A stretch of DNA of 64,000 bases. Origin: Marinobacter lipolyticus SM19 (lineage in GTDB: Bacteria; Pseudomonadota; Gammaproteobacteria; Pseudomonadales; Oleiphilaceae). Location: contig NZ_KE007326.1 of NCBI RefSeq assembly GCF_000397065.2, positions 260,124 through 324,123 on the forward strand, read 5' to 3'. Made by a program: the position numbers and the translations under genes. Positions 16,041 to 47,219 of the stretch are shown here, piece by piece. Positions within the stretch are counted from its first letter, which is position 1, and the number at the start of each line of letters is the position of its first letter. A model generated the notes under the pieces. It made no database searches. It was not told where the DNA came from and saw only the letters and a program-made list of their open reading frames with translations.

Positions 16041-16146
16041 CACCATTGGGAGGGGCTTTCCAAAAATGTTGGAGGCCCGGGAAGGCCGGAAACAAGCGCA
16101 CATGGATGTGCTCGTAGCGGTTTTTGGAAAGCCCCTCCCAATGGTG
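16041..16146 (+). repeat. Long hairpin element A (26-bp perfect arms)
   Basis: Arms 16041-16066 and 16121-16146 are perfectly complementary over 26 bp. The 54-nt loop holds a GGCC-CGGGAA-GGCC mini-hairpin and the palindrome GCACATGGATGTGC (16098-16111) followed by TCGTAGCG. The loop matches element E closely, while the arms are different. It sits between two divergent genes (the histidine phosphatase and the YaiI-like gene). This is one of five such elements in the window. Confidence 0.92.
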
Positions 16147-16258
16147 CCAGCCCGCGAAAGCTGCAGTCTTATCAAATAATACGCGGACCAAACCTACCAG
16201 GCTCACAACAACAAAAGGTAAACTTCACCCCAGAACCAAATCGACGAAGGAACCAACC

Positions 16259-16711
16259 ATGCCAATCTGGGTCGACGCCGACGCCTGCCCCGTACCCATC
16301 CGGGAAATACTCTGCCGCGCCGCTACCCGCTGGCAGATCGACACCACCTTTATCGCCAACCACGCCATCAGCCTGCCCCCAAGTCCCTACATCAAACGCA
16401 TGCAGGTTCCCCAGGGCTTTGATGTCGCGGACAATGAAATCATGGATCAGATGAGCTCCGGCGATCTGGTCATTACCCAGGACATTCCGCTGGCCGCCGA
16501 AGCTATCGACAAAGGCGCGGATGTCTTCAACCCTCGTGGCCAGGCTTTCACCAAAGAGAATATTCGCCAGCGCCTGGCCATGCGTAATTTCATGGAAGAA
16601 ATGCGGAGCGCCGGACAGGTCACGGGTGGTCCGGCCCCGTTCAGCCAGACCGATCGCAAAGAATTCGCCGACAAGCTGGACCGCTGGCTGCAACGCAACA
16701 CCCGCAAGTGA
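16259..16711 (+). CDS. YaiI/YqxD (DUF188) family protein
   Basis: A 150-residue protein with the family opening IWVDADACPVPIREIL and the acidic, nuclease-like motifs GDLVITQDIPLAAEA and FNPRGQAFTKENI. DUF188 proteins have a PIN-like fold and unknown function. The ATG at 16259 has GAAGGA seven bases upstream, so the longer open frame that runs back into hairpin element A is not used. It is followed after 71 bases by the ABC exporter gene. Confidence 0.93.
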   Translation: MPIWVDADACPVPIREILCRAATRWQIDTTFIANHAISLPPSPYIKRMQVPQGFDVADNEIMDQMSSGDLVITQDIPLAAEAIDKGADVFNPRGQAFTKENIRQRLAMRNFMEEMRSAGQVTGGPAPFSQTDRKEFADKLDRWLQRNTRK

Positions 16712-16782
16712 TAATGATTCTGTTTTAAAAGACTTGAGAATCCGCTACCCTTGCCGCTTTTCTGGCGCAAGCGGAGCGGATC

Positions 16783-18573
16783 ATGACACAGCATTTCACC
16801 AAAGCCACCAGCAGTTTTGCCGCCCTTGGTCGCTTGCTGCGCTATGCCAGAGGGTATCGGCGACAGATCATTGCGGCCACTGCCTGCTCCATCATCAATA
16901 AGCTTTTCGACATTGCTCCGGAAATCCTTATTGGTATCGCCATTGATGTGGTGGTCAACAAAGAAGAGAGTTTTGTGGCTGGCCTGGGGTTCGAAACCGC
17001 CCAGGAACAGATCACCATTCTGGCCGTTCTGACCTTCTTTATCTGGGCCGGGGAATCCCTGTTCGAGTATCTGTTTCAGGTTCTCTGGCGCAACCTGGCC
17101 CAGCGCCTGCAATCGGACCTGCGACAGGATGCCTACGAACATGCCCAGCGTCTGGACATGAGCTTTTTCGAGGCCCGCAGCTCCGGCCAACTGGTCGCCA
17201 CCATGAACGACGACGTAAACCAGTTGGAACGCTTTCTGGACGGTGGTGCCAACGCCATGATTCAGGTGTTGGTAACCGTAGTCGCCGTCGGCGCCGTGTT
17301 CTTTGTACTGTCACCGCTGATTGCCCTGCTGGCGTTTACCCCGATCCCCCTGATTGTCTGGGGAGCCTTCTATTTCCAGCGTAAAGCCGGACCACTGTAC
17401 GCAGATGTGAGGGAGAAAGTAGGCGACCTCTCCAGCCGTCTGGCCAACAATCTTGGCGGCATCGCCACCATTAAGAGCTTCACCGCTGAACAACGCGAAG
17501 CTGAACGCCTGAAAGCCAGCAGCGAGGCATACGTGGAGGCCAATCGCCAGGCCATCCGTATCAGTTCCGCTTTCATTCCTGTTATTCGCATGGCAATCCT
17601 CGCCGGCTTCCTCGCCACCTTCACCGTTGGCGGCATGATGGCACTGGAAGGCACTCTCAATGTCGGTGCCTACGGCGTGCTGGTGTTCCTGACCCAACGC
17701 CTGCTGTGGCCACTGACCGGCCTGGCGGAAGTTATCGACCTGTTTGAGCGTGCCATGGCCAGCACGCGGCGGATCCTGGACTTGCTGGCAGAACCGGTCC
17801 ATGTGCGGGACGAAGCTGACACGCCTCTGCCGGAGCCGGTTCGCGGCAGCGTCAAATTCAACAATGTGAGCTTCCACTACCCTTCCAGCGGTGCCGGTAT
17901 CACCGGTATCAGCCTGGACGTGCCGGCCGGAAATACCTTGGCACTGGTCGGCGCAACTGGCTCCGGGAAATCCACCCTGATCAAGCTGTTGCTGCGTTTT
18001 TACGACCCGACGGAAGGTACGATTCAAATCGATGACAAGCCGATACAATCAGTCAGCCTGAAATCACTGCGGAACGCCATCGGCCTGGTCAGCCAGGACG
18101 TCTACCTGTTTGAAGGCACCATTCGGGACAACCTGGCCTACGGCAGGCCCGGCGCCAGCGACGAAGACATCATCGACGCCGCCCGTACCGCTGAAGCCTG
18201 GTCCTTTATTGAAGCCCTGCCCAACGGACTGGATACCGAGGTGGGTGAGCGTGGTGTCCGCCTGTCCGGCGGCCAGCGTCAACGCCTTTCCCTGGCCCGC
18301 GCGCTGTTGAAAAATCCACCGATTCTGGTTTTGGACGAAGCCACCAGCGCGGTGGACAACGAAACCGAGGCGGCCATCCAGCGGTCTCTGAAGCGCATCG
18401 GCCATAACCGTACGGTGATTATGATCGCCCATCGACTCTCCACCATTGTGGACGCGGACACCATCGCAGTTGTGGAGAACGGTAAGGTCGTGGAAAAAGG
18501 CAGCCATCAGACGCTGCTGGACAAAAACGGCGCCTACGCCGCCCAGTGGCGGGGGCAGACCGGACAGGCCTGA
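16783..18573 (+). CDS. ABC exporter, fused membrane and ATPase domains (MsbA-like)
   Basis: A 596-residue half-transporter. Six membrane helices lie in residues ~1-320, with an ABC exporter linker (RQDAYEHAQRLDMSFFEARS). The nucleotide-binding domain has Walker A GATGSGKST, signature LSGGQRQRLSLARALL, Walker B ILVLDEATSAVDN and the switch His in IAHRLSTI. It would work as a homodimer in the inner membrane exporting lipids, drugs or a siderophore. It directly precedes the iron-siderophore uptake genes and a candidate Fur box, which raises the possibility of siderophore export, but the box lies after its own coding region. Confidence 0.93.
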   Translation: MTQHFTKATSSFAALGRLLRYARGYRRQIIAATACSIINKLFDIAPEILIGIAIDVVVNKEESFVAGLGFETAQEQITILAVLTFFIWAGESLFEYLFQVLWRNLAQRLQSDLRQDAYEHAQRLDMSFFEARSSGQLVATMNDDVNQLERFLDGGANAMIQVLVTVVAVGAVFFVLSPLIALLAFTPIPLIVWGAFYFQRKAGPLYADVREKVGDLSSRLANNLGGIATIKSFTAEQREAERLKASSEAYVEANRQAIRISSAFIPVIRMAILAGFLATFTVGGMMALEGTLNVGAYGVLVFLTQRLLWPLTGLAEVIDLFERAMASTRRILDLLAEPVHVRDEADTPLPEPVRGSVKFNNVSFHYPSSGAGITGISLDVPAGNTLALVGATGSGKSTLIKLLLRFYDPTEGTIQIDDKPIQSVSLKSLRNAIGLVSQDVYLFEGTIRDNLAYGRPGASDEDIIDAARTAEAWSFIEALPNGLDTEVGERGVRLSGGQRQRLSLARALLKNPPILVLDEATSAVDNETEAAIQRSLKRIGHNRTVIMIAHRLSTIVDADTIAVVENGKVVEKGSHQTLLDKNGAYAAQWRGQTGQA

Positions 18574-18583
18574 TCATTATAAT

Positions 18584-18603
18584 ATTGATAGTAATTCGCA
18601 TTT
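18584..18603 (+). promoter_or_regulatory. Candidate Fur box upstream of fhuC
   Basis: ATTGATAGTAATTCGCATTT resembles the gammaproteobacterial Fur consensus (AATGATAATNATTCNCATT style). It sits about 50 bases upstream of the siderophore ATPase start and shares ATTCGCATT with the box before the TonB receptor, suggesting iron-dependent repression of the uptake operon. Confidence 0.65.
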
Positions 18604-18655
18604 AGATTATTCTTCAGGCCCTAGGAATCCATCTCAAAGAACGAAGGGAGTCTGT

Positions 18656-19429
18656 ATGTCTGCGTTCTTCAAAGTATCCAGCCTGGGTGTAGATATTGGC
18701 GACGCCGGCATACTGCGCAATATCAACCTTGAGTTTCGCGAAGGCGAAGTCACTGCCCTGCTTGGACACAACGGCTCCGGCAAGTCCACGCTGCTGAAAG
18801 TTCTGGCCCGCCAGTTATCACCATCCTCTGGCGAGGTCAGCGTACTGGGCACTTCGTTTAACAGTACGGGTGCCCGTGAATTTGCCCGCATCGTAGGCTA
18901 CCTTCCCCAACACCCCCCTGGGACCGATGGACTGACGGTACGCGAACTGGTGGCTCTTGGCCGCTACCCATGGAGAGGACCTCTGGGGCGCTATAACGAA
19001 GACGATCACCAGTTGATCGATCAGGCGATTGACGACACCGGACTCCGTCACTTCCAGCATCGTTCCGTCGATACCCTCTCAGGAGGTGAACGCCAGCGCG
19101 CCTGGATCGCCATGCTGCTGGCGCAACAAACCCGGTGCCTGTTACTGGACGAACCCATCTCCGCCCTGGATGTGAAGCACCAGGTAGAGACTCTACGCCT
19201 GGTACACCGCCTGGCCGAAGAGCGGGAGTTAACGGTGATCGTAGTCCTTCACGACGTGGATCTCGCCGCCCGCTTCTGCGACCGATTGGTGGCTCTGAAA
19301 ACCGGAGAGTTCGTTGCAGACGGAAGCCCACGCGAGATTATGGATTCCGGCATTCTCGAAACCATTTACGGTGTGCCCATGGGCGTGATGGAGCGGGCGC
19401 CGGGGCAGTGGGTCTCCTATGTTCACTAA
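18656..19429 (+). CDS. fhuC: Iron-siderophore ABC transporter ATPase (FhuC-like)
   Basis: A 257-residue ATPase of the iron-siderophore/B12 uptake class. Walker A is LLGHNGSGKST, the signature is LSGGERQRAWIAMLLAQ, Walker B is CLLLDEPISALD and the switch His is in VVLHDVDLAARFCD. It powers the FhuB-like permease. GAAGGGAG lies six bases before the ATG. Its 3' end overlaps the binding-protein gene by 11 bases, so the uptake genes form one operon behind the Fur box. Confidence 0.93.
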   Translation: MSAFFKVSSLGVDIGDAGILRNINLEFREGEVTALLGHNGSGKSTLLKVLARQLSPSSGEVSVLGTSFNSTGAREFARIVGYLPQHPPGTDGLTVRELVALGRYPWRGPLGRYNEDDHQLIDQAIDDTGLRHFQHRSVDTLSGGERQRAWIAMLLAQQTRCLLLDEPISALDVKHQVETLRLVHRLAEERELTVIVVLHDVDLAARFCDRLVALKTGEFVADGSPREIMDSGILETIYGVPMGVMERAPGQWVSYVH

Positions 19430-20351
19430 CCCCCGACTGTTTCACCTGATCACCGCCCTGTTTTTGAGCATGCTACCAACACTGGCCGGCGCCGGTACCT
19501 GGCAACATGAACAAGGCACCCTCACCCTCGACGAGCCCCCAAAACGGGTGATTACCCTGAACTGGGCGGCCACCGAAACCCTGTTACTCCTGGGCGTTAC
19601 GCCTGTCGGTGTGGCGGATCGGGATGGTTACTCAGTCTGGGTCAAGGAACCGGCCCTCCCGGACGGCGTACACGATATCGGCGCCCGGGTGGCACCAAGC
19701 CTGGAGGCCATCGCTGAATTGAAACCGGATCTGATTGTGACCAGCTCGGAAATGGCGCCGGCCGCACAACTGTTGGAACGAATAGCGCCCACCTATGTGA
19801 TCAGTGCTTACCGGGAAGAAAGCCAGCCGTTCGACAAGGCCCGGGAGATGCTACTGACACTGGGTGAGATGCTGGATCGCGAGGAGCGCGCGCGCGCCAT
19901 CCTGGCGGACATAGAGCAGACTCTCGATACCCAGCGCCAACGACTGGAAAAGGCAGGATTGACCGACAGGCCCGTGGCCCTGGTGAACTTTCTGGACGAT
20001 CGACATGTGCGGATCTACGCACCGAACGGCCTCTACCAACGCGCCCTTGACGGGCTTGGATTGACCAACGCCTGGTCACGGAAAGGCAATTTCTGGGGGT
20101 TTTCGGTAGTCGGGCTCGAGGCTATCGCCCCTTACCAGGACAGCCGCGTCGTGGTTATTTCCCCAACGCTGCCTGGCCTGTCCGATAATCTGGCCAACAG
20201 CCCTTTCTGGACCTATCTGCCGCCGGTAAAGCGCGAACAGATCTATCAGATTGATGCCACCTGGCCATTTGGCAGTGTATTTCCGATTAAACGGCTCGCG
20301 AAACAGCTGACCGATAGTTTGCTGGAAGGAGGCTCCGACAATGTACGCTGA
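19419..20351 (+). CDS. fhuD: Periplasmic siderophore-binding protein (FhuD-like)
   Basis: A 310-residue class III solute-binding protein. A signal peptide (LITALFLSMLPTLAGAG) is followed by two lobes with family motifs: PPKRVITLNWAATETLLLLG, the APSLEAIAELKPDLIVTSS region, and a long bridging helix. It captures ferric siderophore in the periplasm and delivers it to the FhuB-like permease. It overlaps fhuC upstream and fhuB downstream by about 11 bases on each side. The chelate (hydroxamate or other) cannot be predicted. Confidence 0.92.
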   Translation: MFTNPRLFHLITALFLSMLPTLAGAGTWQHEQGTLTLDEPPKRVITLNWAATETLLLLGVTPVGVADRDGYSVWVKEPALPDGVHDIGARVAPSLEAIAELKPDLIVTSSEMAPAAQLLERIAPTYVISAYREESQPFDKAREMLLTLGEMLDREERARAILADIEQTLDTQRQRLEKAGLTDRPVALVNFLDDRHVRIYAPNGLYQRALDGLGLTNAWSRKGNFWGFSVVGLEAIAPYQDSRVVVISPTLPGLSDNLANSPFWTYLPPVKREQIYQIDATWPFGSVFPIKRLAKQLTDSLLEGGSDNVR

Positions 20352-22371
20352 CACCTCCACCCTGCCTTTGGCACGTCCAACCATTCCGGCCACACTGCCG
20401 ATTGCAGCGGTTATTCTCTGGCTCGGCGCTCTCTTCGCCAGCGCCACGCCCTGGCTGAATCAGTTGGACCCAATCGCAATACTTTCCGCATTCTGGACAT
20501 TCAACCCTGATCAGTATGCATCGGTGCTTGCCCATTACAGCTGGGCACCCCGCGTGTCCATTGCCATGCTGATTGGCTGTGGTTTGGGGTTGGCGGGGGC
20601 CGTTACCCAGCAGATCCTCGGCAACCCGCTGGCGTCCCCCACCACGCTCGGTGTCGAAGCCGGTGGTCAGTTTGGTGTGACCGTAGCCACTTTGTTTGCG
20701 CCGGGCCTGCTTGCGTTCAGCCCGGATCTCGCCGCCATCGGGGGCGGTTTACTGGCCATCGGGCTGGTGATTGCGCTGACCTGGCGCCTGGGCTTTTCAC
20801 CGGTGACGGTCATTCTCGCAGGGCTGGTGATCACCTTTTTCCTGGGCGCCATGAACATGGCCTTTCTGCTGCTTAAGGGAGAATGGCTCGGCAACCTGTA
20901 CATCTGGGGAGCTGGCTCCCTGGTACAGAATAACTGGGGTCCGTTTATGGATCTCTGGCCCCGGGTCCTGGTGCTCGCAATCCTGATGTTACTGCTGATG
21001 CGACCGTTACAATTGCTCCAGCTGGGGCAGGCATCCGCCAGCTCACTGGGGGCCCGTGTAGGGCTGATCCGTGTGTTGGCATTGTTACTGGTGGTATTGA
21101 TGAGTACCACCGTGGTCAGCCGGGTCGGGGTCGTCGCTTTTATCGGCCTCGCGGCGCCGGTACTGGCCCGGCTCCTGGGAGCACGCACCCTGGGCAGCCG
21201 CTTGCTTTGGAGCACGGTGATGGGGGGCGGCCTGCTGCTGTTGGCGGACACCCTCGCACATTGGGCGTCGACATGGGGTGACGGTTCCCTGGTCCCGACA
21301 GGAACCACAACAGCGCTGATCGGTGGCCCCGTTATCCTGCTGGCCCTGCAAGGCCTCAGGAATACCCACCACATGCCCGGCCAGGAATCGAGCCCGGCCG
21401 GCTTCCAGCCCAAACGACGCTCACCGGTCATAATCAGTGGCGTCATCGTCACCCTGCTACTGGCCACCATCGTCATCTCAATGGGCTGGTCTCCGGGACT
21501 GGACGGCTGGAACTGGACCCCCATCTCGCAATGGCATGAAGCCTGGGTCTGGAGAGGTCCGAGACTGCTGGCAGCGACCCTTGCAGGTGTTGCCCTGGGA
21601 CTGGCGGGCACACTGATTCAACGCATGACAGGCAACCCCATGGGAAGTCCGGAGATGCTGGGCATCAGTGGTGGCGCCGCCCTGGTCATGGTGATGATTG
21701 TATTGTCCGGCCTGGAAGTCGGACGCGCGGGGCAGCTTGGCGCGGCCACCCTCGGCGCCGCAGCGGCACTCGGTTTACTCATCCTGCTGGCACGAAAGCA
21801 CCGTTTCGCCGGCAACCAACTCCTTCTGGGTGGCCTGGCGCTGTATGTATTCATGGACGCAGGCCTACGGCTGGTCATGGCCTCTGGCGGCACCGTGGCG
21901 GCTCAGCTTCTGAACTGGATGTACGGCTCCACCTGGCTGACGTCCGAAAACGAAGCCTTTGGCCTGATGGCATTCATTGTTCTGATCTGCGGTCTTCTGT
22001 GCCTGGTGGTGCGTCCGCTAACACTGCTGCCGCTTGGTGATACGTCCGCCTCGGCGCTGGGGTTACCGGTTGCCAAGGCTCGCCTGCTACTCCTGTTGGT
22101 TGCCGCCGTACTAACTGCATCAGCTACAGTGGTGATCGGCCCCCTGAGCTTTGTGGGCCTGATAGCACCTCATCTCGCCCGCGTACTCGGCCAGCAGACA
22201 GTCGGCCGTCAGATGATTGTGGCCGCCCTGGTCGGCGGGCTTCTGCTGGCTGCTGCCGATTATCTGTCCCGTATTGTGGTTTACCCTGGCCAGCTACCAG
22301 CCGGATTACTTGCAGCGCTGGTCGGCGGTGTCTACTTCCTGTGGGGGCTGAGTCGTCATGGCCGTGCCTGA
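20341..22371 (+). CDS. fhuB: Siderophore ABC permease, double-length (FhuB-like)
   Basis: A 676-residue permease made of two fused FecCD-type halves, the layout specific to FhuB. Each half repeats the family motif: GCGLGLAGAVTQQILGNPLA in the first, then GVALGLAGTLIQRMTGNPMG in the second, plus paired GLAAPVLARLLGA and GLIAPHLARVLGQ segments that contact the ATPase. About twenty membrane helices are expected. GGAGG precedes the ATG. It overlaps the fhuF-like gene by 14 bases. Confidence 0.95.
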   Translation: MYADTSTLPLARPTIPATLPIAAVILWLGALFASATPWLNQLDPIAILSAFWTFNPDQYASVLAHYSWAPRVSIAMLIGCGLGLAGAVTQQILGNPLASPTTLGVEAGGQFGVTVATLFAPGLLAFSPDLAAIGGGLLAIGLVIALTWRLGFSPVTVILAGLVITFFLGAMNMAFLLLKGEWLGNLYIWGAGSLVQNNWGPFMDLWPRVLVLAILMLLLMRPLQLLQLGQASASSLGARVGLIRVLALLLVVLMSTTVVSRVGVVAFIGLAAPVLARLLGARTLGSRLLWSTVMGGGLLLLADTLAHWASTWGDGSLVPTGTTTALIGGPVILLALQGLRNTHHMPGQESSPAGFQPKRRSPVIISGVIVTLLLATIVISMGWSPGLDGWNWTPISQWHEAWVWRGPRLLAATLAGVALGLAGTLIQRMTGNPMGSPEMLGISGGAALVMVMIVLSGLEVGRAGQLGAATLGAAAALGLLILLARKHRFAGNQLLLGGLALYVFMDAGLRLVMASGGTVAAQLLNWMYGSTWLTSENEAFGLMAFIVLICGLLCLVVRPLTLLPLGDTSASALGLPVAKARLLLLLVAAVLTASATVVIGPLSFVGLIAPHLARVLGQQTVGRQMIVAALVGGLLLAAADYLSRIVVYPGQLPAGLLAALVGGVYFLWGLSRHGRA

Positions 22372-23173
22372 ACCGGAACTCCGGCTTTGGCCGGAGCATT
22401 ACCGTCACCTGCTTGCCGAATCCGGACTGGACCGGGATGCTGAGCTGGCCGGCGCCCTACAGCCCGAAGATATCAACCGAACGGCCTTGTTCTCACTGGC
22501 ACAAGGCCTTCGGGACCCAGAATTATTACGCCAGCAGGTTCGCACTGACTATCCCGATGCACAGGATAACCGCGCGGTCACCGCGCGGTTATCGGTGCTG
22601 CAGCAGGATCTTGCCCTGAACATTATCGCACCGCAGACCTTACGGCTATTCCTGCACGGGAAAGCGCCTCAGCCGGATCCTGAAAGGATTTTTCTAGGTG
22701 CATTACGCCCAGGGGAACAAACGTCACCACGCTGGTTTCTGGCGGCCAATGCAACTCCTGTCGACGTTTGTGAGTTTGTCAGTGGCATGGAAGCACAGGT
22801 GAATGCCTGGTACCCGGTCTTTCGGCAATCACTTGGCGTCAGTCCTGGCGCTTACTGGAGCAGTGTTGGTCTGGGCCTGGGGGCACCTTTTTCCGTGGTC
22901 TGGAATCGTGGGGAACCGTCAGCCGTATGCCAGCTTGCGCAGGCATGGCTGAACCAATTCGAGTGCGATGCCAACCGCTTTATTGACTGGATACCCGCCG
23001 AGTTCAGCGGGCAATCATGCGCAATTCCTCAGCGCAAAGGCTGCTGCCTGAAGTATCTGTTACCGGAAGGGGGGTACTGCGGAACCTGTGGTATCTATCG
23101 AAAGGAACGTATGGCAACACTCAGCCACCAAAAGCCGAGCTCAACACCAGGCCAATGGCGACCAGGCCTATAA
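22358..23173 (+). CDS. fhuF: Siderophore-iron reductase (FhuF-like)
   Basis: A 271-residue protein whose C-terminus holds the FhuF iron-sulphur motif CCx10CxxC (GCCLKYLLPEGGYCGTCGIY). FhuF proteins are cytoplasmic or membrane-associated 2Fe-2S reductases that release iron from hydroxamate siderophores by reduction. It is the last gene of the fhuC-D-B-F operon and is translationally coupled to fhuB. Its last 53 bases overlap a small ORF on the opposite strand. Confidence 0.92.
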   Translation: MAVPEPELRLWPEHYRHLLAESGLDRDAELAGALQPEDINRTALFSLAQGLRDPELLRQQVRTDYPDAQDNRAVTARLSVLQQDLALNIIAPQTLRLFLHGKAPQPDPERIFLGALRPGEQTSPRWFLAANATPVDVCEFVSGMEAQVNAWYPVFRQSLGVSPGAYWSSVGLGLGAPFSVVWNRGEPSAVCQLAQAWLNQFECDANRFIDWIPAEFSGQSCAIPQRKGCCLKYLLPEGGYCGTCGIYRKERMATLSHQKPSSTPGQWRPGL

Positions 23174-23231
23174 GCAGCCCGGAACTCGCGGCTATTTTTA
23201 ATCCTTCAATCATTTCCTGCTCGGGTGTCAT
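23121..23231 (-). CDS. 36-residue membrane mini-protein
   Basis: Reading the minus strand gives ATG at 23231 and TGA at 23121-23123, encoding a 36-residue peptide. It starts MTPEQEMIEGLK, has one membrane helix (AASSGLLIGLVAIGLVLSSA) and ends FGG. An unusually good ribosome site (GGAGGGCAGGG) lies directly upstream. It is downstream of the TonB receptor on the same strand, after a stem-loop, and overlaps the 3' end of fhuF. I do not recognise a family. Such mini membrane proteins often bind and modulate a transporter, but here that is only inference. Confidence 0.6.
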   Translation of the reverse strand: MTPEQEMIEGLKIAASSGLLIGLVAIGLVLSSAFGG

Positions 23232-23298
23232 TCCCTGCCCTCCCCTCAGCATCTGATCAGAATTTCGTATATCGATCTTTTACCATGGCCGAGTGTAT

Positions 23299-23326
23299 GC
23301 CGGAGCAGGAATACCCCTGCTCCGGC
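23299..23326 (-). terminator. Stem-loop after the TonB receptor gene
   Basis: A perfect 11-bp GC-rich stem (23299-23309 with 23316-23326) lies just past the receptor stop codon. There is no T run on the minus strand, so it may be an mRNA 3'-end stabiliser or processing site rather than a full intrinsic terminator, leaving room for read-through into the mini-ORF. Confidence 0.55.
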
Positions 23327-23332
23327 TGACTG

Positions 23333-26835: not shown

Positions 26836-26844
26836 CCCGCAGTC

Positions 26845-35770: not shown

Positions 35771-35879
35771 GCTGGTGCCGGGTAGCCCCTTCCAAAACAC
35801 GCTGTGAATACATCCCTGTACGCTGTGCTCCGCCATCCATGGCTCCGCAACGTTTTGGAAGGGGCTACCCGGCACCAGC
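35771..35879 (-). repeat. Long hairpin element B (28-bp perfect arms)
   Basis: Arms 35771-35798 and 35852-35879 are perfectly complementary over 28 bp. On the minus strand the 53-nt loop reads GCGGAGCCATGGATGGCGG, then ACAGCGTACAGGGATGTATT and CACAGCGT. This matches elements C and D in the loop, while the arms differ. Orientation is opposite to A, C and E. It lies 52 bases upstream of the SDR start within the acyl-CoA operon. Confidence 0.92.
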
Positions 35880-35996: not shown

Positions 35997-36109
35997 GGAG
36001 CCGGCGGGGTGGTGTTTCTGAAAATTTGCGGAGCCATGGATGGCGGAGCAGAAGCGCCACATGGATGTGCCGAAGGAGCGGTTTTCAGAAACACCACCCC
36101 GCCGGCTCC
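35997..36109 (+). repeat. Long hairpin element C (28-bp perfect arms)
   Basis: Arms 35997-36024 and 36082-36109 are perfectly complementary over 28 bp. The 57-nt loop carries both GCGGAGCCATGGATGGCGG (as in B) and CACATGGATGTG (as in A and E), so it links the two loop subtypes. It lies 20 bases past the acyl-CoA dehydrogenase stop and could act as its transcript end. Between B and C (35880-35996) nothing else was recognised. Confidence 0.92.
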
Positions 36110-38354: not shown

Positions 38355-38363
38355 GAGTACCGG

Positions 38364-38720: not shown

Positions 38721-38740
38721 GATGTAACCTCAATGACCAG

Positions 38741-39689: not shown

Positions 39690-40847
39690 ATGGCCCAGAA
39701 ATCCCGAATCGCAATTACCCCTGGCGATGGCATTGGCCCTGAAGTTGTCGCCGAGGCTGTGCGTTGCCTGGAGACTCTGCGTTCCAGGCACAACCTGAAC
39801 CTGGAATGGACACGGTTTCCCTGGCCGTCCCATGCCTGGCATGAGGAACATGGCGAATCCATGCCGGAAAATGCCCTGGACCAACTCAAAGCATTTGATG
39901 CCATCCTGCTCGGAGCACTGGGTGATCCCGGACCGGTAGATGATCCACAACGTTACCTGTTGCCTGACAGCATTTCCCTGGCACCATTACTGGATATGCG
40001 TAAGGGGTTTGATCAATGGGTTTGTGAACGGCCAGCACGGCTACTTCCGGGAGCGCGCCAGTATCTGGCTGATGAACGCGCCAAAGACATCGACATGCTG
40101 GTCATACGTGAAAATAGTGAAGGCGAATACGTCAGTCAGGGTGGCCGCCTGCGCAAAGGTACCCCCAACGAAGTCGCCACCCAGATGGAGGTGTTCACCC
40201 GTTACGCCACCGATCGGATCATTCGCTACGGATTTGAACAGGCCCGTCTGCGCGCGGGCGAGCGGATGAAACAGGGGCGTACCCGTCAGTTCAAAACCCT
40301 GGATGGCCGCACTTCCGAGAGCCAGGTCTGCATTGTCACCAAGCGCAATGCCCTGCGCTACTGGGGTGATATGTACTCTGAGGCCTTTGAAGAAATCAGC
40401 AAGGAATACCCGGATGTGGCCACCCACCACGAGTTGGTGGATGCCGCCTGCATGAAGTTCGTGCAGTGTCCCTGGGCGTTTGATGTGGTGGTTGCCAGCA
40501 ACCTGCAAGGTGACATCCTGACGGATCTGGCTGCTGTTCTGTCAGGAGGTATGGGGGTTGCCCCTTCATGCAACCTGAACCCCACCGATGCCAAGATGCC
40601 GTCCATGTTCGAGCCCACCCACGGCAGTGCCCCGGACATTGCCGGCCAGGGTCTGGCTGATCCCACGGCCATGCTGTTTACCACCGCGCGCATGATGGAG
40701 TGGCTGGGGCGAAAAGACCCGGCACTGGCCGCTGCGGGCCAGAAGCTGTTTGACGCCGTGGCTGCAGATCTCGCGGAGAACGCCGGAGCGCAGCGTGGTA
40801 CCCATGAAATCGGCACCGCGATCTGCCATCGCCTGGAGAGCAATTAA
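39690..40847 (+). CDS. Isocitrate/isopropylmalate dehydrogenase family (tartrate dehydrogenase-like)
   Basis: A 385-residue NAD-dependent beta-decarboxylating dehydrogenase. Landmarks are ITPGDGIGPEVV at the N-terminus, VIRENSEGEYVSQGGR, the catalytic Lys in VTKRNALRYW and the NAD-binding FEPTHGSAPDIAGQGLADP. The size and the ENSEGEY(V/S)xxGG form fit tartrate/D-malate dehydrogenases (TtuC/DmlA) better than LeuB, but the substrate is not certain. AGGAG lies nine bases before the ATG. It is followed by the class III aminotransferase gene. Confidence 0.88.
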   Translation: MAQKSRIAITPGDGIGPEVVAEAVRCLETLRSRHNLNLEWTRFPWPSHAWHEEHGESMPENALDQLKAFDAILLGALGDPGPVDDPQRYLLPDSISLAPLLDMRKGFDQWVCERPARLLPGARQYLADERAKDIDMLVIRENSEGEYVSQGGRLRKGTPNEVATQMEVFTRYATDRIIRYGFEQARLRAGERMKQGRTRQFKTLDGRTSESQVCIVTKRNALRYWGDMYSEAFEEISKEYPDVATHHELVDAACMKFVQCPWAFDVVVASNLQGDILTDLAAVLSGGMGVAPSCNLNPTDAKMPSMFEPTHGSAPDIAGQGLADPTAMLFTTARMMEWLGRKDPALAAAGQKLFDAVAADLAENAGAQRGTHEIGTAICHRLESN

Positions 40848-40924
40848 TCTTTCTCATTCATTTGAAAAGCGTCTTTTTGGGACTAGGCTGCAAGAGGGAC
40901 TAAATTCACTTCGGGAGGTGCACC

Positions 40925-42184
40925 GTGACCGACCATAAAGGCAAGTTATCACCACTGCTGAAACAGGCGACTGGCATCACCGCAGCCAAGGGCGAGGGTG
41001 CCTATATCATCGATCCGGATGGCCGGCGGTATCTGGATTTCACCTCCGGCATCGGTGTCACCAGTACCGGTCATTGCCACCCGAAGGTTGTGGAGGCTGC
41101 ACAGAAACAGGTTGCCACCATGATTCATGCCCAGGCCACCACGGTGATGAATCCACGGTTGCCGGAGCTGGCGGAAAAATTGGGCGAACTCACCCCGGAC
41201 CCGTTGAATGCGTTCTTTTTCTCCAACGCCGGTACCGAGGTGGCAGAGGGCGCCATCCGTCTGGTGCGACAGGCCACCGGACGTCCGAACATCATTGTAT
41301 TCCATGGTGGTTTTCACGGGCGCACCATGGGCTCCCTTTCACTAACCACTTCCAGCGTCGGACTCCGTGCAGGCGTCAGCCCGATGATGGGTGGCGTTGT
41401 CGTCGCCCCCTTCCCCCACGCCCACCACTATGGCTGGAATCTTGAAGACACGACTGATTTCTGTCTACGAGAGCTTGACCGGATCTTTGTCACCTATTCT
41501 GCGCCCAGGGAAACCGCCGCGATGCTGATCGAACCAGTACAGGGTGAAGGCGGTTATGTACCCGCCAATGCCAGGTTCCTGAAAGGCCTGCGGGAGCGCT
41601 GTGACAAGCATGGCATTATGCTGGTGTTCGACGAAGTTCAGGCCGGATTTGGTCGCAGCGGCCAGTTCTGGGCCCACCAGCACTTTGGTGTAACGCCCGA
41701 TGCCATCATGATTGCCAAGGGCCTGGCCAGCGGTTTCCCGATTTCAGCCCTGGCCGCGTCGGAAGACACCATGGCCAAGGGCTGGCCGGGTTCCCAGGGT
41801 GGCACCTACGGAGGCAACGCGGTGGCAGCTGCCGCAGCCATTGCAACCATTGACGTTATCCGGGAGGAAGGGCTTGTCGAAAACGCCAATAAGATGGGCA
41901 AGCATCTTTGGGACAGTCTCCAGAAATTGAAGAACGACTATCCGGACATGGCTGACGTTCGCGGGATGGGCCTGATGGTCGGTGTGGAAATGCGCCGGGA
42001 CAACGCTCCGGACGGTGATCGTGCAGGCAGGATTCTCAAGGAATGCGAGAAGCGCGGCTTACTGATGCTGCGCTGCGGCCCCTACCAGGAAATCGTACGC
42101 TGGCTTCCGCCGCTGATCGTCAATGAACAACAGATTGACGAGGCGGTGAACATCTTTGAGGAAGCACTGAAAGTAAGCGCCTGA
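40925..42184 (+). CDS. Class III aminotransferase (GABA-aminotransferase-like)
   Basis: A 419-residue PLP enzyme. The family motifs are FFSNAGTEVAEGAIRLVRQ, FHGGFHGRTMGSLSLT, VFDEVQAGFGRSG and the PLP Lys in IMIAKGLASGFPISAL. The sequence is closest in feel to 4-aminobutyrate/omega-amino acid aminotransferases, which use 2-oxoglutarate or pyruvate; acetylornithine activity cannot be ruled out. The start is GTG with GGGAGG six bases upstream. A strong terminator follows. Confidence 0.9.
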   Translation: MTDHKGKLSPLLKQATGITAAKGEGAYIIDPDGRRYLDFTSGIGVTSTGHCHPKVVEAAQKQVATMIHAQATTVMNPRLPELAEKLGELTPDPLNAFFFSNAGTEVAEGAIRLVRQATGRPNIIVFHGGFHGRTMGSLSLTTSSVGLRAGVSPMMGGVVVAPFPHAHHYGWNLEDTTDFCLRELDRIFVTYSAPRETAAMLIEPVQGEGGYVPANARFLKGLRERCDKHGIMLVFDEVQAGFGRSGQFWAHQHFGVTPDAIMIAKGLASGFPISALAASEDTMAKGWPGSQGGTYGGNAVAAAAAIATIDVIREEGLVENANKMGKHLWDSLQKLKNDYPDMADVRGMGLMVGVEMRRDNAPDGDRAGRILKECEKRGLLMLRCGPYQEIVRWLPPLIVNEQQIDEAVNIFEEALKVSA

Positions 42185-42198
42185 CCTGCCCGTTAACA

Positions 42199-42230
42199 AA
42201 AAAGGGGCCGCTGATTCCGGCCCCTTTTCC
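42199..42230 (+). terminator. Intrinsic terminator after the class III aminotransferase
   Basis: An 11-bp stem (AAAAGGGGCCG 42200-42210 with CGGCCCCTTTT 42218-42228) with a T run. The A tract on the left makes it bidirectional, serving the convergent YceB-like gene too. Confidence 0.93.
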
Positions 42231-42242
42231 GTTCTTCCCTGC

Positions 42243-42812
42243 TTACTCTGACATCACGAACTCAAGCCGACCAGGAGCAACCCGGACGTCCATTGGCACC
42301 ATCCCGAACATACGTTGGGCAAGGTCCGTATCGTCCAGGCGATAAACCGGCATGGTTTCCAGCATTTGCGCCACTACCCGCATCACATTGTCGGTCACGG
42401 GCTTGAGATCCCCCTTGAACAGGGGGGAATCAATGCTGCTCTCAAGCAGCTGCAAGCGACGGATATAAACCGCCTTTTCCTCAGCATCATAAACAGGCGC
42501 ACCCTCCACTTTCAGCGCCAGGTCCACCGGTAGCTTGGTCAACAGGGCGTTCAATGCCACCTGCCCCTTGAGGTCTATAACAGCCACATCCCGACCGTCG
42601 GGCCCCAGCGTAATGTCTGCATCATTCAGGCTGAGGCTTAGTGGCGAACCACTTCGCAGTTGTTCCCGGTCGAATTCGGTGACGGCGTCCTGAAAATGGC
42701 GTTCCAGGGTCGCTTCCGAAATCGAGTACGGTGACAGGCTGGCACAGCCACTAATCAGGCTCACCGCCAGAATACAGAGGGCCGACAGAACGGATGATCG
42801 ATTAAAACCCAT
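42243..42812 (-). CDS. DUF1439 lipoprotein (YceB-like)
   Basis: A 189-residue lipoprotein with lipobox LISG-C and the DUF1439 pattern (YSISEATLERHFQDAVTEFD, then GQVALNALLTKLPVDLALKV and a C-terminal RVAPGRLEFVM). It has the SRPBCC/SYLF-like beta fold expected of YceB, an outer-membrane lipoprotein of unknown function. GGAG lies nine bases before the ATG at 42812, which is preferred over an earlier one. Confidence 0.87.
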   Translation of the reverse strand: MGFNRSSVLSALCILAVSLISGCASLSPYSISEATLERHFQDAVTEFDREQLRSGSPLSLSLNDADITLGPDGRDVAVIDLKGQVALNALLTKLPVDLALKVEGAPVYDAEEKAVYIRRLQLLESSIDSPLFKGDLKPVTDNVMRVVAQMLETMPVYRLDDTDLAQRMFGMVPMDVRVAPGRLEFVMSE

Positions 42813-42900
42813 GGATGAATCTCCGGATATGATCATGAATACGAGGGGGTAGCCTATGCTATCGCAACTTCAAGGTAGGTTAAGATTTCGTTAGGAACAG

Positions 42901-43092
42901 TTACCCGTTCTCCGCCTGGGCCTCCACAGTGGGCGTCAGGTCATCGCCCACGATGACCTTCAGCAGAATCGGCTGGCAACAGACCTGGCAGTCCTCCACA
43001 TACTCCTGCTCCCGCACCGATGGGTCAACGCTGATTTCCAGCGTTTCCCAGCAGTACGGACATTGAATGAGAACAGAGTCCAGGGCTGACAT
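42901..43092 (-). CDS. CPXCG-motif zinc-ribbon mini-protein
   Basis: A 63-residue protein with two Cys pairs, QCPYCWETLEISVD and EDCQVCCQPILLKV, the CPxC(G) cysteine-rich family. It probably binds one zinc. Its function is unknown. GAGGTGG precedes the ATG at 43092. It is seven bases downstream of the aminotransferase gene on the same strand. Confidence 0.88.
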   Translation of the reverse strand: MSALDSVLIQCPYCWETLEISVDPSVREQEYVEDCQVCCQPILLKVIVGDDLTPTVEAQAENG

Positions 43093-43099
43093 ATCCACC

Positions 43100-44326
43100 T
43101 CAGAACTGTTGTTTTGCCATCCAGGGTATAATGCGATCGAAGGCTTCTTCCAGCTTCTCGCAGGTGGTCGAGAAACTGATCCTGACCGCATTGGTACAAT
43201 GCTCGCCAAAAGCATCACCAGGGACAACGCAGACACCAGTTTCCTTCAGCATGCGCAGGGAAAGATCCGAGCCATCCACATGGGGCGGCAGATCCGGGAA
43301 GGCAAAGAATGCGCCGCCTGGCTTGTAGCCGGTCAGGTAGGGTGTCTGATCAATCAGCTCAACCACCTTGTCACGGCGCTCGCGATATATATCGACCATA
43401 TCCTTGACGCATTGCTGATCACCGGTCAGCGCCGCGACCCCGGCAAACTGAGACGGCGTGTTGGCCACGGACGTGGTGAACATGTGATAGCGGCGAAGCG
43501 ATTTGATGGCCGCCTGGCTCGAAATAACCCAACCCACTCGCAATCCTGCCATGCTGTAGGTCTTGGAAAAGCTGCTGATACACATGATGTTGTCCAGGTC
43601 CATTGAACAGTTCAGGACGCTGGCAAAGTCATCGTCGTCGAAAATCAGATGGTCGTAGACCTCATCCGCATAGACCTGAACGCCTCGATAAGCACATTCT
43701 TCCAGAATGGTTTCCACCGTGCTGCGGGGATAGACCGCTCCGGTGGGGTTGTTCGGGTTGTTGAGGATCAGGGCAAACGTACGGGCCCCCATGGCACGGA
43801 TCACTTCATCCGGATCCAGCTGATGGTTATTCTCCGCCCGGGTCGGAACGAACTTGACCTCGCCACCGTTCATCCTGATCAGCGGCGCATAGAGCAGGAA
43901 TGATGGGTCAGTCACTATAAACTGCCGTCCCGGCGCAGATGTGGCAGAGATAGCCAGATACATCGCCTCCGTGGCACCGCTGGTGATCAGAATATTATCC
44001 CGGGTCAATCGCCGGTTATAGCGCTTGCCGTAGTAATCACGCAGCGCCACCAGCAGTTCCGGCAAGCCTGCATCCATGGTGTAACCGGTCTGCCCCGCAT
44101 TCAGGGCATCGATGTAAGCATCGATGATGTGCTTGGGCGTCGGCAAATCAGGCTGACCAATGGACAGATGAATGACATCCTTCATGGTGGCCGCCATATT
44201 CACCATACGACGAATGCCAGGAATCGGCACTGCCTGCATGGCGGGGTTCCAGCTGGCCTTGCTCTTGCGATACTTCACTTTCCGCGGCTTGGTCTGGCCA
44301 GTTTCGTTGTTGGCGGCTTCGGCCAT
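43100..44326 (-). CDS. Class I/II aminotransferase (aspartate/aromatic type)
   Basis: A 408-residue PLP aminotransferase. The motifs are LSIGQPDLPTP, ITSGATEAMYLAI, NNPNNPTGAVY, YADEVYDHLIF and the PLP Lys in ISSFSKTYSMAGLRVGW. A basic N-terminal extension of ~25 residues precedes the fold. AGGAGG lies seven bases before the ATG at 44326. It would transaminate an aspartate-like or aromatic amino acid; specificity is not readable. Confidence 0.9.
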   Translation of the reverse strand: MAEAANNETGQTKPRKVKYRKSKASWNPAMQAVPIPGIRRMVNMAATMKDVIHLSIGQPDLPTPKHIIDAYIDALNAGQTGYTMDAGLPELLVALRDYYGKRYNRRLTRDNILITSGATEAMYLAISATSAPGRQFIVTDPSFLLYAPLIRMNGGEVKFVPTRAENNHQLDPDEVIRAMGARTFALILNNPNNPTGAVYPRSTVETILEECAYRGVQVYADEVYDHLIFDDDDFASVLNCSMDLDNIMCISSFSKTYSMAGLRVGWVISSQAAIKSLRRYHMFTTSVANTPSQFAGVAALTGDQQCVKDMVDIYRERRDKVVELIDQTPYLTGYKPGGAFFAFPDLPPHVDGSDLSLRMLKETGVCVVPGDAFGEHCTNAVRISFSTTCEKLEEAFDRIIPWMAKQQF

Positions 44327-44585
44327 AAGAACACCTCCTGCAAACAAGGCAAAAAAGAAGCTACTCATGCAGGTTAGTCAGTAAAGAAGGGAGCGACAAG
44401 GCATAACAACAGAAAGATTCAGGACCTGGATAAGCTGTTGTTTTTCGGCCTCTGAATACCACTGTTTCAGCATCCCGGGTTGACCGCCCGCCACCTGCGA
44501 ACCAGACTGTACAAAACTGGATCGTAACGCCCTACCAAGCGCTCCAGACACCCCCAGACAGCGTTATCAGGTGAGTGGAGGACAG

Positions 44586-45569
44586 ATGACAAAACACAGC
44601 AAACCGGTCGTAACCGTTCTGACTGCCCCGGACGAGCAGGAACCGCCCGGAATGGATGCTCTCCGGGCCAGGGCCACCGTCAGGTTTGCCTGTGACGAAC
44701 CCACGCTGAGAGACACCTTGCCCGGCACCGATGTGATGATGGTCACTGACTTTCGCACGGAAGCCCTGGAAGCGGCCTGGCCATCGGCGGATAAACTTCA
44801 GTGGATACACGCCACTAGCGCCGGCGTCGATGCGCTGATGTTCCCGGCCCTGATTAATGGCGATGTCACGGTCACCAACGCCCGCGGCATTTTTGACCGC
44901 ACGATTGCAGAATACGTGCTCTGCACCATTCTGATGTTCGCCAAGGACTTTCCCCGCTCCATTCGCCTGCAGATGGACCACAAGTGGCAGCATCGGGACA
45001 CAGAACGCGCGCAAGGCAATCAGGTGCTGGTGGTGGGCGCCGGTTCCATCGGTCGCCAGATCGCTCGCCTGGTCAGTGCCATCGGTATGAAACCTCACGG
45101 GATTGCCCGCAGGGCCCGTCATGACGACGCTGACTTTGTCGCGGTACACAGTAACGATGACCTGTTCACGCAACTGGCTCTGGTGGATTACGTAGTCATT
45201 GCCGCGCCACTCACACCGCAAACCGAAGGCCTGTTCGACAGCAAGGCATTCAAGACCATGCGCCCCCACGCTCGGCTGATCAACATTGGCCGCGGCCCCA
45301 TTGTGAAGACCGACGACCTGGTCGATGCACTGCGCAATGGCGAAATTGCCGGCGCCGGCCTGGATGTGTTTGAGGAAGAACCGCTACCGGAAGATCATCC
45401 GCTGTGGGACATGGAGAACGTCATCATGACAGCCCACATGGCCGGAGACTTCATCGGCTGGAAACGCGCCCTTACCGACCAGTTCCTGGAGAACTTTGAT
45501 CGCTGGCATGGCGGTGAGGAGCTGTTCAATCTGGTGGACAAGGAGTTGGGGTACGCCGGGAGCAAGTAG
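44586..45569 (+). CDS. D-2-hydroxyacid dehydrogenase
   Basis: A 327-residue NAD(P)-dependent dehydrogenase of the D-isomer-specific family. The cofactor motif is VVGAGSIGRQIA, and the catalytic triad is Arg in INIGRGPIVKTDDL, Glu in GLDVFEEEPLP and His in VIMTAHMAG. The fold matches GhrA/GhrB-type enzymes, which reduce 2-oxoacids such as glyoxylate or hydroxypyruvate. GGAGG lies four bases before the ATG at 44586. It is followed by element D and is convergent with the desaturase gene. Confidence 0.9.
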   Translation: MTKHSKPVVTVLTAPDEQEPPGMDALRARATVRFACDEPTLRDTLPGTDVMMVTDFRTEALEAAWPSADKLQWIHATSAGVDALMFPALINGDVTVTNARGIFDRTIAEYVLCTILMFAKDFPRSIRLQMDHKWQHRDTERAQGNQVLVVGAGSIGRQIARLVSAIGMKPHGIARRARHDDADFVAVHSNDDLFTQLALVDYVVIAAPLTPQTEGLFDSKAFKTMRPHARLINIGRGPIVKTDDLVDALRNGEIAGAGLDVFEEEPLPEDHPLWDMENVIMTAHMAGDFIGWKRALTDQFLENFDRWHGGEELFNLVDKELGYAGSK

Positions 45570-45577
45570 TCGGGTCC

Positions 45578-45772
45578 GGAGCGGGCGGAAGGGGCGTATT
45601 CCAAAACACGCTGTGAATACCTCCCTGTACGCTCGGCTCCGCCCTTCAGCGCTTATTGCTCCTGCGTCGCGCTAAAGGTCCAGGGCGAGCCGTCCGTGGC
45701 TCGCCCGTGAAGTGCTTCGCACTCCACCCATGGCTACGCACGGTTTTGGAATACGCCCCTTCCGCCCGCTCC
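45578..45772 (-). repeat. Long hairpin element D (30-bp perfect arms)
   Basis: Arms 45578-45607 and 45743-45772 are perfectly complementary over 30 bp. The loop is 135 nt, about 80 nt longer than the other copies. It keeps the shared core (minus strand GCGTAGCCATGGGTGG and AGCGTACAGGGAGGTATTCA) but contains extra nested hairpins, including GGGCGAGCC/GGCTCGCCC at 45684-45706. It lies between two convergent genes and is the only copy in that setting. Confidence 0.92.
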
Positions 45773-45809
45773 TCCGAGTATTTGTCCCAGTTCAGCCCAC
45801 CAGCAAAAC

Positions 45810-45842
45810 GTAGGTCGGATTAGCCGAAGGCGTAATCCGACA
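45810..45842 (+). repeat. GTAG-type REP palindrome
   Basis: GTAG is followed by GTCGGATTA (45814-45822) and TAATCCGAC (45833-45841), which pair, with a GCC-GAA-GGC tip. This is the classic REP/RAYT-target layout of gammaproteobacteria. It sits between element D and the desaturase stop. No RAYT transposase gene is in the window. Confidence 0.85.
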
Positions 45843-45845
45843 ATA

Positions 45846-46925
45846 TCATCTGGCCGCGTATTGCCTCTGCAACGGCAACAAATCAAACACCCGCTCAGGA
45901 TTATTCGGATCCACCAACTCCGTCGACGATTTATAAACCCTCGGCGTGGTGTAAAGCAGCTTCAGCGCCGTGCCATGGGGCATAGCCATATACCGCTCAC
46001 CGTGATTCTCCTCCAGCCACTTCCGCACACGCGGTGCCATGTTGTGCCCCATTTTCGGAAAGAAATGGTGCTCCACATGATGACTGAACCGGAAGTGCAA
46101 TCGATCCAGAACCGGATGGCTGCGCAGGCTCATGGAGTTATCCAGCGGATTATTGGTGGCCGTCTGCGGACGCAGGAAGTGATTGGTAAGGATATACCCC
46201 TGCCCCAGGGCATTCGCCACCATGAACGGTACCAGCACCGTAAACAGCGCCAGAGGACCGGAAATCACCGCAAGTACAGCCCACGCCGCCGTGCAGTAAA
46301 AGGTCTGACGAATCGCCTTGCTGCGATCCATGCCCTGGAACTGCTTGCGACGCTTGGCCTGGAACCACAACACCAACTGCGCATGGAACGTGAACGAATA
46401 AGTCAGGAACAGATAGCTGTACCAGGTACCTGACCCCGGCGCCAGCTTGGTGAACTTCTTCTGCTTGGGGTCGGCTTTATAGCGACGCATGGTCCCGAAA
46501 CTGTCCGGATCCGAGTCACCGGTATTGGTATTACCGTGATGCACCACGTTATGCCACTTACGCCAGAACTCCGGCGGGACAATCATCGGCCCGAACCCCA
46601 GCCAGCCAAAGAAATTCTGCCAACGCTTGCTCATGCCCAGCGCCCCGTGCAACACCTCATGGGCCAGCAGCGCCTGACAGCCAATGGTGTGACCCACCAC
46701 CAGCCCAAGCCCCAGATTTGCATACCACGGCAGCCCCGCCAGCAGAATCGTCACAATCCCGCCCCAGATCATCAGCTGCAACGGCAGAAACCAGATCACC
46801 CGCCAGGTCTGCGCCTCGAAAGTATCCGCAGGCAGCTCCTTCTTCATCCTGTCCCGAAGCTCACGCTCATCGGGTTTCCCAAACACGGCATTTCCCATTG
46901 AATCGGGCTTAACAGCAGCGTTCAT
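45846..46925 (-). CDS. Membrane fatty acid desaturase
   Basis: A 359-residue di-iron membrane desaturase. The three histidine boxes are HEVLH, HNVVHH and HHVEHH, with hydrophobic segments between them, so it is an integral acyl-lipid or acyl-CoA desaturase using O2. The N-terminus is short and has no cytochrome b5 domain, so an external electron donor is needed. AAGGTGACG precedes the ATG. Elements D and REP lie past its stop and element E lies upstream, which places the gene between two members of the hairpin family. Confidence 0.92.
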   Translation of the reverse strand: MNAAVKPDSMGNAVFGKPDERELRDRMKKELPADTFEAQTWRVIWFLPLQLMIWGGIVTILLAGLPWYANLGLGLVVGHTIGCQALLAHEVLHGALGMSKRWQNFFGWLGFGPMIVPPEFWRKWHNVVHHGNTNTGDSDPDSFGTMRRYKADPKQKKFTKLAPGSGTWYSYLFLTYSFTFHAQLVLWFQAKRRKQFQGMDRSKAIRQTFYCTAAWAVLAVISGPLALFTVLVPFMVANALGQGYILTNHFLRPQTATNNPLDNSMSLRSHPVLDRLHFRFSHHVEHHFFPKMGHNMAPRVRKWLEENHGERYMAMPHGTALKLLYTTPRVYKSSTELVDPNNPERVFDLLPLQRQYAAR

Positions 46926-47113
46926 TCGTCACCTTCATTCTGAAAACACAATGGTCCAGCACGCCTATTTAAATTTGAGCGTACAAGTGTGAGCCGAATT
47001 TACAGAAAGAAAACCACAATGACAATGGCATTTAGATGAATATTTTGTGATCAAAAAAATATTTGCGTACACGCGTACTTTCGCAATGAGAAGCCATTAC
47101 CGGGGTTGGAGGG

Positions 47114-47219
47114 GCTGGGCGGGTGGACCTTCCACGGGATCTCTTCGGCCAGGGAAGGCCGAAGCGAAGCGCACATGGATGTGCTCGTAGCGTGCCCGTG
47201 GAAGGTCCACCCGCCCAGC
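47114..47219 (+). repeat. Long hairpin element E (25-bp perfect arms)
   Basis: Arms 47114-47138 and 47195-47219 are perfectly complementary over 25 bp. The 56-nt loop has a TTCGGCC-AGGGAA-GGCCGAA hairpin and GCACATGGATGTGC followed by TCGTAGCG, nearly the same as element A although the arms are different. It lies between the desaturase start and the response regulator terminator. The rest of 46926-47305 is AT-rich desaturase promoter region plus that terminator. Confidence 0.92.

Follow-up and report, generated by a model that had tools for sequence, protein, structure and literature searches.

How do the two arms of a long hairpin stay perfectly paired while their sequence changes? For RNA stems this is an old question, and the usual answer is compensatory selection by way of G.U intermediates. 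We discuss five hairpins, elements A to E, from a 64,000-nucleotide stretch of the Marinobacter lipolyticus SM19 genome (contig NZ_KE007326.1, positions 260,124 to 324,123 of the forward strand; hereafter the window), whose loops share a core and whose arms differ from copy to copy and are perfect within each copy. The pattern of paired changes at orthologous loci argues that one arm probably templates the repair of the other, and the loops resemble binding sites of the regulator CsrA/RsmA. The hairpins belong to an apparently undescribed family, dispersed between genes in Marinobacter and other gammaproteobacteria.

Five hairpins with perfect arms

An inverted-repeat search of the whole window (arms of at least 18 nt, no more than 300 apart) listed 14 pairs. 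Elements A to E are five of the top six; the remaining top pair combines parts of B and C, and in the other eight the arms measure 18-29 nt and are 72-89% complementary. Fifty approximately dinucleotide-preserving shuffles contain on average 0.06 inverted-repeat seeds of 14 nt within 300 bases, and at most 1; the window itself has 86. All five hairpins of the preliminary description are recovered in place, far above the shuffles, with the arm lengths it gave for B to E and one pair more for A, 27 bp instead of 26. In the following list the strand is the one that carries the GGA motifs of the loops (the GGA strand).

Element A, 16040..16147, + strand: 27-bp perfect arms at 16040-16066 and 16121-16147; GGA loop 1, GGCCCGGGAAGGCC, which differs from CANGGANG, within 16074-16087; GGA loop 2, GCACATGGATGTGC, within 16098-16111.
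Element B, 35771..35879, - strand: 28-bp perfect arms; CANGGANG sites at 35834-35841 and 35811-35818.
Element C, 35997..36109, + strand: 28-bp perfect arms; CANGGANG sites at 36035-36042 and 36060-36067.
Element D, 45578..45772, - strand: 30-bp perfect arms; a long loop of 135 nt with additional hairpins, CACGGACG at 45691-45698 and CAGGGAGG at 45620-45627.
Element E, 47114..47219, + strand: 25-bp perfect arms; CANGGANG sites at 47150-47157 and 47174-47181.

The loop core that had been described as common to the copies is indeed shared: CATGGATG lies on the + strand in three elements (A, C, and E) and on the - strand in B; in D the - strand has two variants of it, CACGGACG and CAGGGAGG. Elements B and C are inverted partners within one intergenic gap. 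The arms had been called largely unrelated, and they do differ between copies, only not wholly: 42 arms from this genome share a weak pattern of a G-rich outer part, CCTTCC, and then AAAA(C). The best identity between paralogous arms in Marinobacter is mostly 0.6-0.8, against 0.46 at random. Copying of arms between loci was considered and rejected, as the best paralog identity rounds to no more than 0.8 in three genomes.

Paired change at orthologous loci

Orthologous loci were taken from the 30 best-scoring of 124 congeners in each search. Element A (arms of at least 25 bp) is present in 19 of the 28 congeneric loci that have both anchors (30 fetched), the rest comprising one with an 8-bp match only and eight with none; its orientation is constant in all 19, nine of which are mismatch-free and ten of which have one or two mismatches. 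Element B (arms of at least 20 bp) is present in 22 of 30 loci, all with both anchors. Alignments were confined to members of one loop length, 17 sequences for A and 20 of the 23 listed for B (the second element of L083, the C element of L092, and L102 are left out), and both sets align gap-free. Standard pairs occupy 99.3% of arm cells at locus A and 97.5% at locus B, with changes on both sides at 16 (A) and 21 (B) of 27 arm pairs, and none of 500 shuffles scores as high as the whole structure at either locus. The small hairpins within the loop are invariant at their paired positions in both sets, so they add no covariation evidence there. The comparison of orthologous loci proposed in the preliminary description, made here between congeners, finds arms that differ and yet stay paired.

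That description left two explanations side by side, fold-back correction of one arm against the other and strong selection on pairing. In the latter, ordinary structured-RNA selection, arm mutations would be compensated since the RNA stem is needed, and no templated correction would take place. The strong covariation speaks for it, as does an excess of G.U mismatches on one strand (see below); the kinds of paired change speak against it. Four close genomes gave 124 ortholog pairs of elements, of which six with arms below 14 bp were dropped and 118 were compared gap-free. In the 75 with at least 75% pair identity, 1,785 arm pairs are unchanged, 146 show double Watson-Crick changes (75 transitions and 71 transversions), 2 show other doubles, and 40 show single changes. 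Transitions and transversions are about equally common in the less similar bins (22, 20, and 1 ortholog pairs) as well, except in the bin with a single pair (2 vs 13). The transition/transversion ratio in the flanks of these loci is 1.6.

Ribonuclease P (RNase P) stems from 30 congeners, the 30 best of 60 hits, served as a control for stems under selection as RNA. Counted over all sequence pairs, and therefore not as independent events, double Watson-Crick changes comprise 808 transitions and no transversions in RNase P, 345 and 457 at locus A (transversion/transition 1.32), and 800 and 711 at locus B (0.89). Transversion-type columns are 0 of the 11 variable pair columns in RNase P, 10 of 16 at locus A, and 14 of 21 at locus B. 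Single changes predominate in RNase P (1,859), and the fraction double/(double + single) is 0.30 there vs 0.89 at locus A and 0.84 at locus B. Loci A and B together have 1,145 transition and 1,168 transversion doubles.

Paired change at locus B is neutral-like in its amount, at about two thirds of four-fold-site divergence. At a mean four-fold-site distance of 0.31 (17 pairs), double changes affect 0.20 of arm pairs; at 0.48 (91 pairs), the value is 0.33. We compared these levels with the predictions of a 16-state chain, a simple model that leaves out population tunnelling. In its selection-only form, with selection fitted to the mismatch levels seen, the model yields 0.011 and 0.030 doubles, more than 10-fold too few, and transversion/transition of 0.16-0.20. 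With correction at 50-100 times the mutation rate it yields 0.28-0.29 and 0.44-0.46 doubles (transversion/transition 0.77-0.93), and correction with weak selection, the form that fits, yields 0.20 and 0.35 (0.58-0.66).

Template switching further predicts that the loop is inverted from time to time. A search for matching flanks with opposite loop orientation listed 40 candidate pairs, many of them confounded by adjacent inverted pairs; alignment shows the loop inverted between congeners at three loci.

L003/L250 versus L273: loop inverted, arms differ throughout.
L012/L309 versus L288: loop inverted, inner arms alike.
L032/L326 versus L221: loop inverted, arms recognisably homologous.

Such inversions have a precedent in yeast, where template switching yields spacer inversion along with arm homogenisation; the same paper mentions bacterial data in which template switching favours transversions (PMC8604942). 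Template switching has also been proposed to create and maintain RNA hairpins (PMC8794818). Structured-RNA selection leaves the inversions unexplained, and with the common transversion doubles and the shortfall of its fitted model we regard it as very unlikely on its own. The levels of paired change, the contrast with RNase P, the loop inversions, and the model fits argue instead that the arms are probably kept alike mainly by templated correction.

Several points weigh against this conclusion. The RNase P stems vary less than the arms (11 of their 101 columns are variable), which leaves the control unmatched for rate. Paired change at locus B is low at the closest distances, 0 at 0.11 (n=1) and 0.07 at 0.23 (n=2). 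The L003/L250 versus L273 case may be a replacement instead of an inversion. Finally, correction is here inferred from patterns of sequence change.

A putative dual CsrA-type site on the GGA strand

What, then, do the loops do? CsrA-like sites were not part of the preliminary description. Read on the GGA strand, an element consists of two small hairpins on top of a long stem (P1). Hairpin 1 has the motif ACANGGANG and was used for retrieval (no more than one mismatch in most scans), which misses divergent members and inflates its apparent conservation. Hairpin 2 was not used, and it carries CANGGANG in 265 of 287 standard elements (92%), against 1% in shuffles. CANGGANG varies at its two N positions, and the two GGAs are 17-20 nt apart; among the 265 elements, the spacing is 18 nt in 145 and 19 nt in 107. 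By comparison, the published CsrA consensus from systematic evolution of ligands by exponential enrichment (SELEX) is RUACARGGAUGU, and the CsrA dimer spans sites 10-63 nt apart, with a stated optimum above 18 nt (PMC7652899); RsmA/RsmN recognise ANGGA in loops (PMC3791407). In predicted folds the GGA strand is the more stable of the two strands in 89% of the 287 elements, and 235 of the 287 have at least two mostly unpaired GGAs. The SM19 genome has one csrA gene, and CsrA is found in 25 of 26 element-bearing genomes of the class, a count confined to genomes with elements and so no test of association. On these likenesses, the loops may well be a dual RNA site of the CsrA/RsmA type, and we lean somewhat towards this reading.

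The arms themselves are not symmetrical between strands. In a set of 349 elements with 8,425 arm pairs, which includes orthologs and is therefore not independent, 188 elements are mismatch-free and the GGA strand shows 145 G.U, 24 A.C, and 79 other mismatches. The G.U:A.C skew is 74:8 in Marinobacter and 71:16 in mixed-taxa loci, and by gene-orientation class it is 14:4, 22:2, 22:1, and 2:0, the same direction in all. Either the GGA strand must fold or its cytosines mutate more, the polarised events being too few to separate the two. Such strand-specific mismatches leave room for an extra constraint at the level of RNA or of single-stranded DNA.

A number of observations tell against a CsrA-type RNA site. 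The minimum-energy folds of B and C do not contain both small hairpins. Of 36 polarised mismatches, 19 are C>T on the GGA strand (with 4 G>A, 3 A>G, and 1 T>C), a smaller polarised set is even richer in C>T, and biased cytosine mutation could be part of the strand asymmetry. One element-bearing genome, G332 (98% complete), has no CsrA match, and its two elements look genuine by eye. Gene orientation, scored for 215 Marinobacter elements with a home-made hexamer gene caller trained on this window, is near-random: 171 were classified (58 convergent, 55 sense or up+dn+, 41 antisense or up-dn-, and 17 divergent), 35 were left unclassified, and 9 were scored within a gene. In three genomes, neither a simple sigma-70-like consensus promoter score nor T-runs favour the GGA strand, and the 10 nt that follow contain 1.4-1.8 T after the GGA strand vs 2.7-2.9 after the other. 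Near-random orientation together with the missing promoter and T-run signal is odd for an RNA element.

Two other explanations are touched by the same data. The first is a DNA-level element, whose GGA strand would fold as single-stranded DNA and be recognised by some protein; the likeness to CsrA sites would be coincidental, and the arms would still be corrected by fold-back. Integron attC sites and REP hairpins are recognised in this way, as folded single-stranded DNA. The lack of an orientation bias and of promoter or terminator signals is in its favour, as are the genome without a CsrA match and the strand asymmetry, which suits single-stranded DNA as well as RNA. Against it stand the CANGGANG sites, found with varying N positions and a spacing of 17-20 nt in 92% of elements, and the transposase search: the Y1 transposase domain (PF01797) has no match in the whole genome, which agrees with the earlier remark that no transposase is nearby as far as Y1 is concerned, integrases and other recombinases and transposases not having been searched for. 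We consider a DNA-level element unlikely, though it deserves to be kept in mind. The second, bidirectional intrinsic terminators with inserted loops, would suit GC-rich hairpins that lie in convergent gaps more often than in divergent ones (58 vs 17). No T-run follows the hairpin on either strand, however, and 96 of the 171 classified copies lie in co-directional gaps and 17 in divergent ones, and we give this explanation almost no weight.

The genes next to elements A to E are ordinary ones (seven flanking proteins were annotated). A lies between divergent genes for a histidine-phosphatase-like protein (-) and a YaiI/YqxD family DUF188 protein (+); B lies between acyl-CoA dehydrogenase and short-chain dehydrogenase genes, both on the - strand; D separates convergent D-2-hydroxyacid dehydrogenase (+) and fatty-acid desaturase (-) genes; and E lies between the desaturase (-) and a LuxR-type response regulator (-). 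Directly after D, at 45810-45841, stands a separate short palindrome, GTAGGTCGGATTAGCC..GGCGTAATCCGAC, kept with variation in congeners without D; we take it to resemble the REP-like GTAG palindromes. The sole Rfam match at gathering score in the window is a cspA thermoregulator RNA at 2541-2983 (RF01766, 89.9 bits).

Family size and spread

The loop motif WCATCCMTGTRCGCT, allowing one mismatch, has 43 matches in the 4.02-Mb SM19 genome, A to E among them, and none when read backwards. Perfect arms of 15-30 bp flank 41 of the 43 (three loops include runs of N). Most loops span 52-56 nt, and D and some others have a long one of about 135 nt. Whole elements measure about 105-115 bp, or near 190 bp in longer variants. 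Inverted pairs about 200 bases apart in one gap, like B and C, are frequent in this genome and in relatives (e.g., L009, L037, and L282). An exact 16-mer of one loop type occurs in 20 of 38 relatives, SM19 counted.

The preliminary description had suspected similar tracts in other gammaproteobacteria, and members do occur in many of them. Of 274 genomes sampled from the same class (SM19 included), 27 contain a loop 18-mer. In a phylum-wide draw of 398 genomes it occurs in 18 of the 137 that belong to this class and in none of the remaining 261. A scan of GTDB contigs for GTGAATACRTCCMTGTASGCT found at least 118 stretches; the titles among the matches listed include Halomonas, Microbulbifer, Alcanivorax, Methylotuvimicrobium, Stenotrophomonas, Sedimenticola, Ectothiorhodospira, Halopseudomonas, Pectobacterium, and Lysobacteraceae, and one metagenome-assembled genome (MAG) titled Nitratireductor, which is not a gammaproteobacterium. 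Many members outside Marinobacter have long perfect arms, and others have short arms only. Some MAG bins may be mislabelled or contaminated: loci L203, L217, and L220 are on contigs labelled Klebsiella pneumoniae and L162 on one labelled Nitratireductor. In another genome, G097, contig C1 (4.47 Mb) is free of the motif from 1.86 to 2.64 Mb, and near the record ends motif orientation is almost one-sided, a post hoc observation that is perhaps replication-related.

Are the hairpins a degenerate mobile element, a miniature inverted-repeat transposable element (MITE) with the arms as terminal inverted repeats? The many dispersed copies would fit, and so would genome G385 (putatively Methylotuvimicrobium buryatense 5G). 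It has 308 matches of the loop 18-mer, and most of 14 sampled copies (L424-L437) have common long flanks with TATACC..GGTATA-like ends and arms that, by eye, are imperfect and shared between copies, which suggests MITE-like amplification of the family in that lineage. In Marinobacter, on the other hand, arms differ between copies, different species have orthologous copies, and where a copy is missing the cause is in some cases a deletion that left an arm remnant. Those inspected by eye include remnants that keep part of an arm, for D in L334 and for B in L097. The D locus in G127 has lost the element save a left-arm remnant, and in G097 it has a short 53-nt loop and near-identical arms. Element D is found in the same orientation in at least 5 of 22 anchored congeneric loci, two more having only an opposite-oriented element, and E in at least 11 of 29. 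The ortholog finder is motif-based, so loci counted as lacking an element may include motif-divergent ones; orthologs of C were mostly missed by it and are visible by inverted-repeat search. Orientation is constant among the orthologs found for A, B, and E. The plasmid and phage collections gave no match for element B, the sole element queried. We think a degenerate MITE-like element quite unlikely.

No Rfam family matches the hairpins at gathering score in the window, and six loci searched at expect values up to 10 gave only matches of 18-28 bits, below gathering scores (RNase P in L136 apart), for example Ysr224 at 20-24 bits against a gathering score of 70 and Acido-1 at 27 against 50. In the open-licence literature, no description of the family was found among the matches listed, and texts containing any of six 12-14-mers were judged unrelated from the listing.

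A proposed explanation and its significance

We propose the following sequence of events. During replication, the DNA would fold back on itself and one arm would template the repair of the other, a quasipalindrome correction by template switching that would also invert the loop now and then. Where the GGA strand is transcribed, the two small hairpins would form a dual site for a CsrA/RsmA dimer, and the stem would hold the pair in place. The copies could then act jointly as a dispersed CsrA-binding RNA, either as a decoy or as a local regulator of mRNA ends. That templated correction and a putative dual CsrA-type site hold together seems to us an evenly balanced proposition. More tentatively still, the whole might be a genome-wide, self-repairing RNA family, dozens to hundreds of dispersed hairpins that jointly bind CsrA/RsmA, with sequence selection on the loop only and a stem that drifts, is kept perfect by fold-back copying of DNA, and carries a loop that is occasionally flipped; we offer this as a possibility that the sequences bring to mind, and a doubtful one.

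With hundreds of natural copies and a same-genus RNase P comparison, the hairpins look like a case in which templated correction dominates, at a rate that is open to estimation and that the 16-state model puts at roughly 50-100 times that of point mutation. If it is true that the loops bind CsrA, dispersed repeats would add a new layer to the way in which a global regulator is titrated in many gammaproteobacteria. Each of the two claims is open to direct test.

Comparison with known systems

The CsrA-sequestering small RNAs of the CsrB/RsmZ type also consist of GGA-in-loop hairpins spaced for bridging by a CsrA dimer, a feature seen here from sequence; the elements, too, have more than one hairpin whose loop contains A(N)GGA, in sequence and in predicted fold. 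They differ from the present family, which has two sites per standard copy, dozens of dispersed copies, and a long perfect stem, with no promoter or terminator signal seen and no Rfam match for the hairpins at gathering score. The repetitive extragenic palindromic (REP) sequences and bacterial interspersed mosaic elements (BIMEs) of the REP-associated tyrosine (RAYT, Y1) transposases share dispersed intergenic palindromes and inverted pairs; unlike them, the hairpin family has a stem that is not conserved between copies, in a genome without a PF01797 gene. MITEs and other stem-loop repeat families are likewise short, multicopy, and non-coding, whereas the arms of the Marinobacter copies are not terminal inverted repeats conserved between copies. 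In the behavior of the arms, the family resembles quasipalindrome correction and template-switch homogenisation, which bring arm homogenisation, double changes, and spacer inversion (PMC8604942, PMC8794818). The hairpins show homogenised arms with paired changes of any type and spacer inversion at three loci. They differ in being a whole repeat family, whose loops are preserved while the arms drift.

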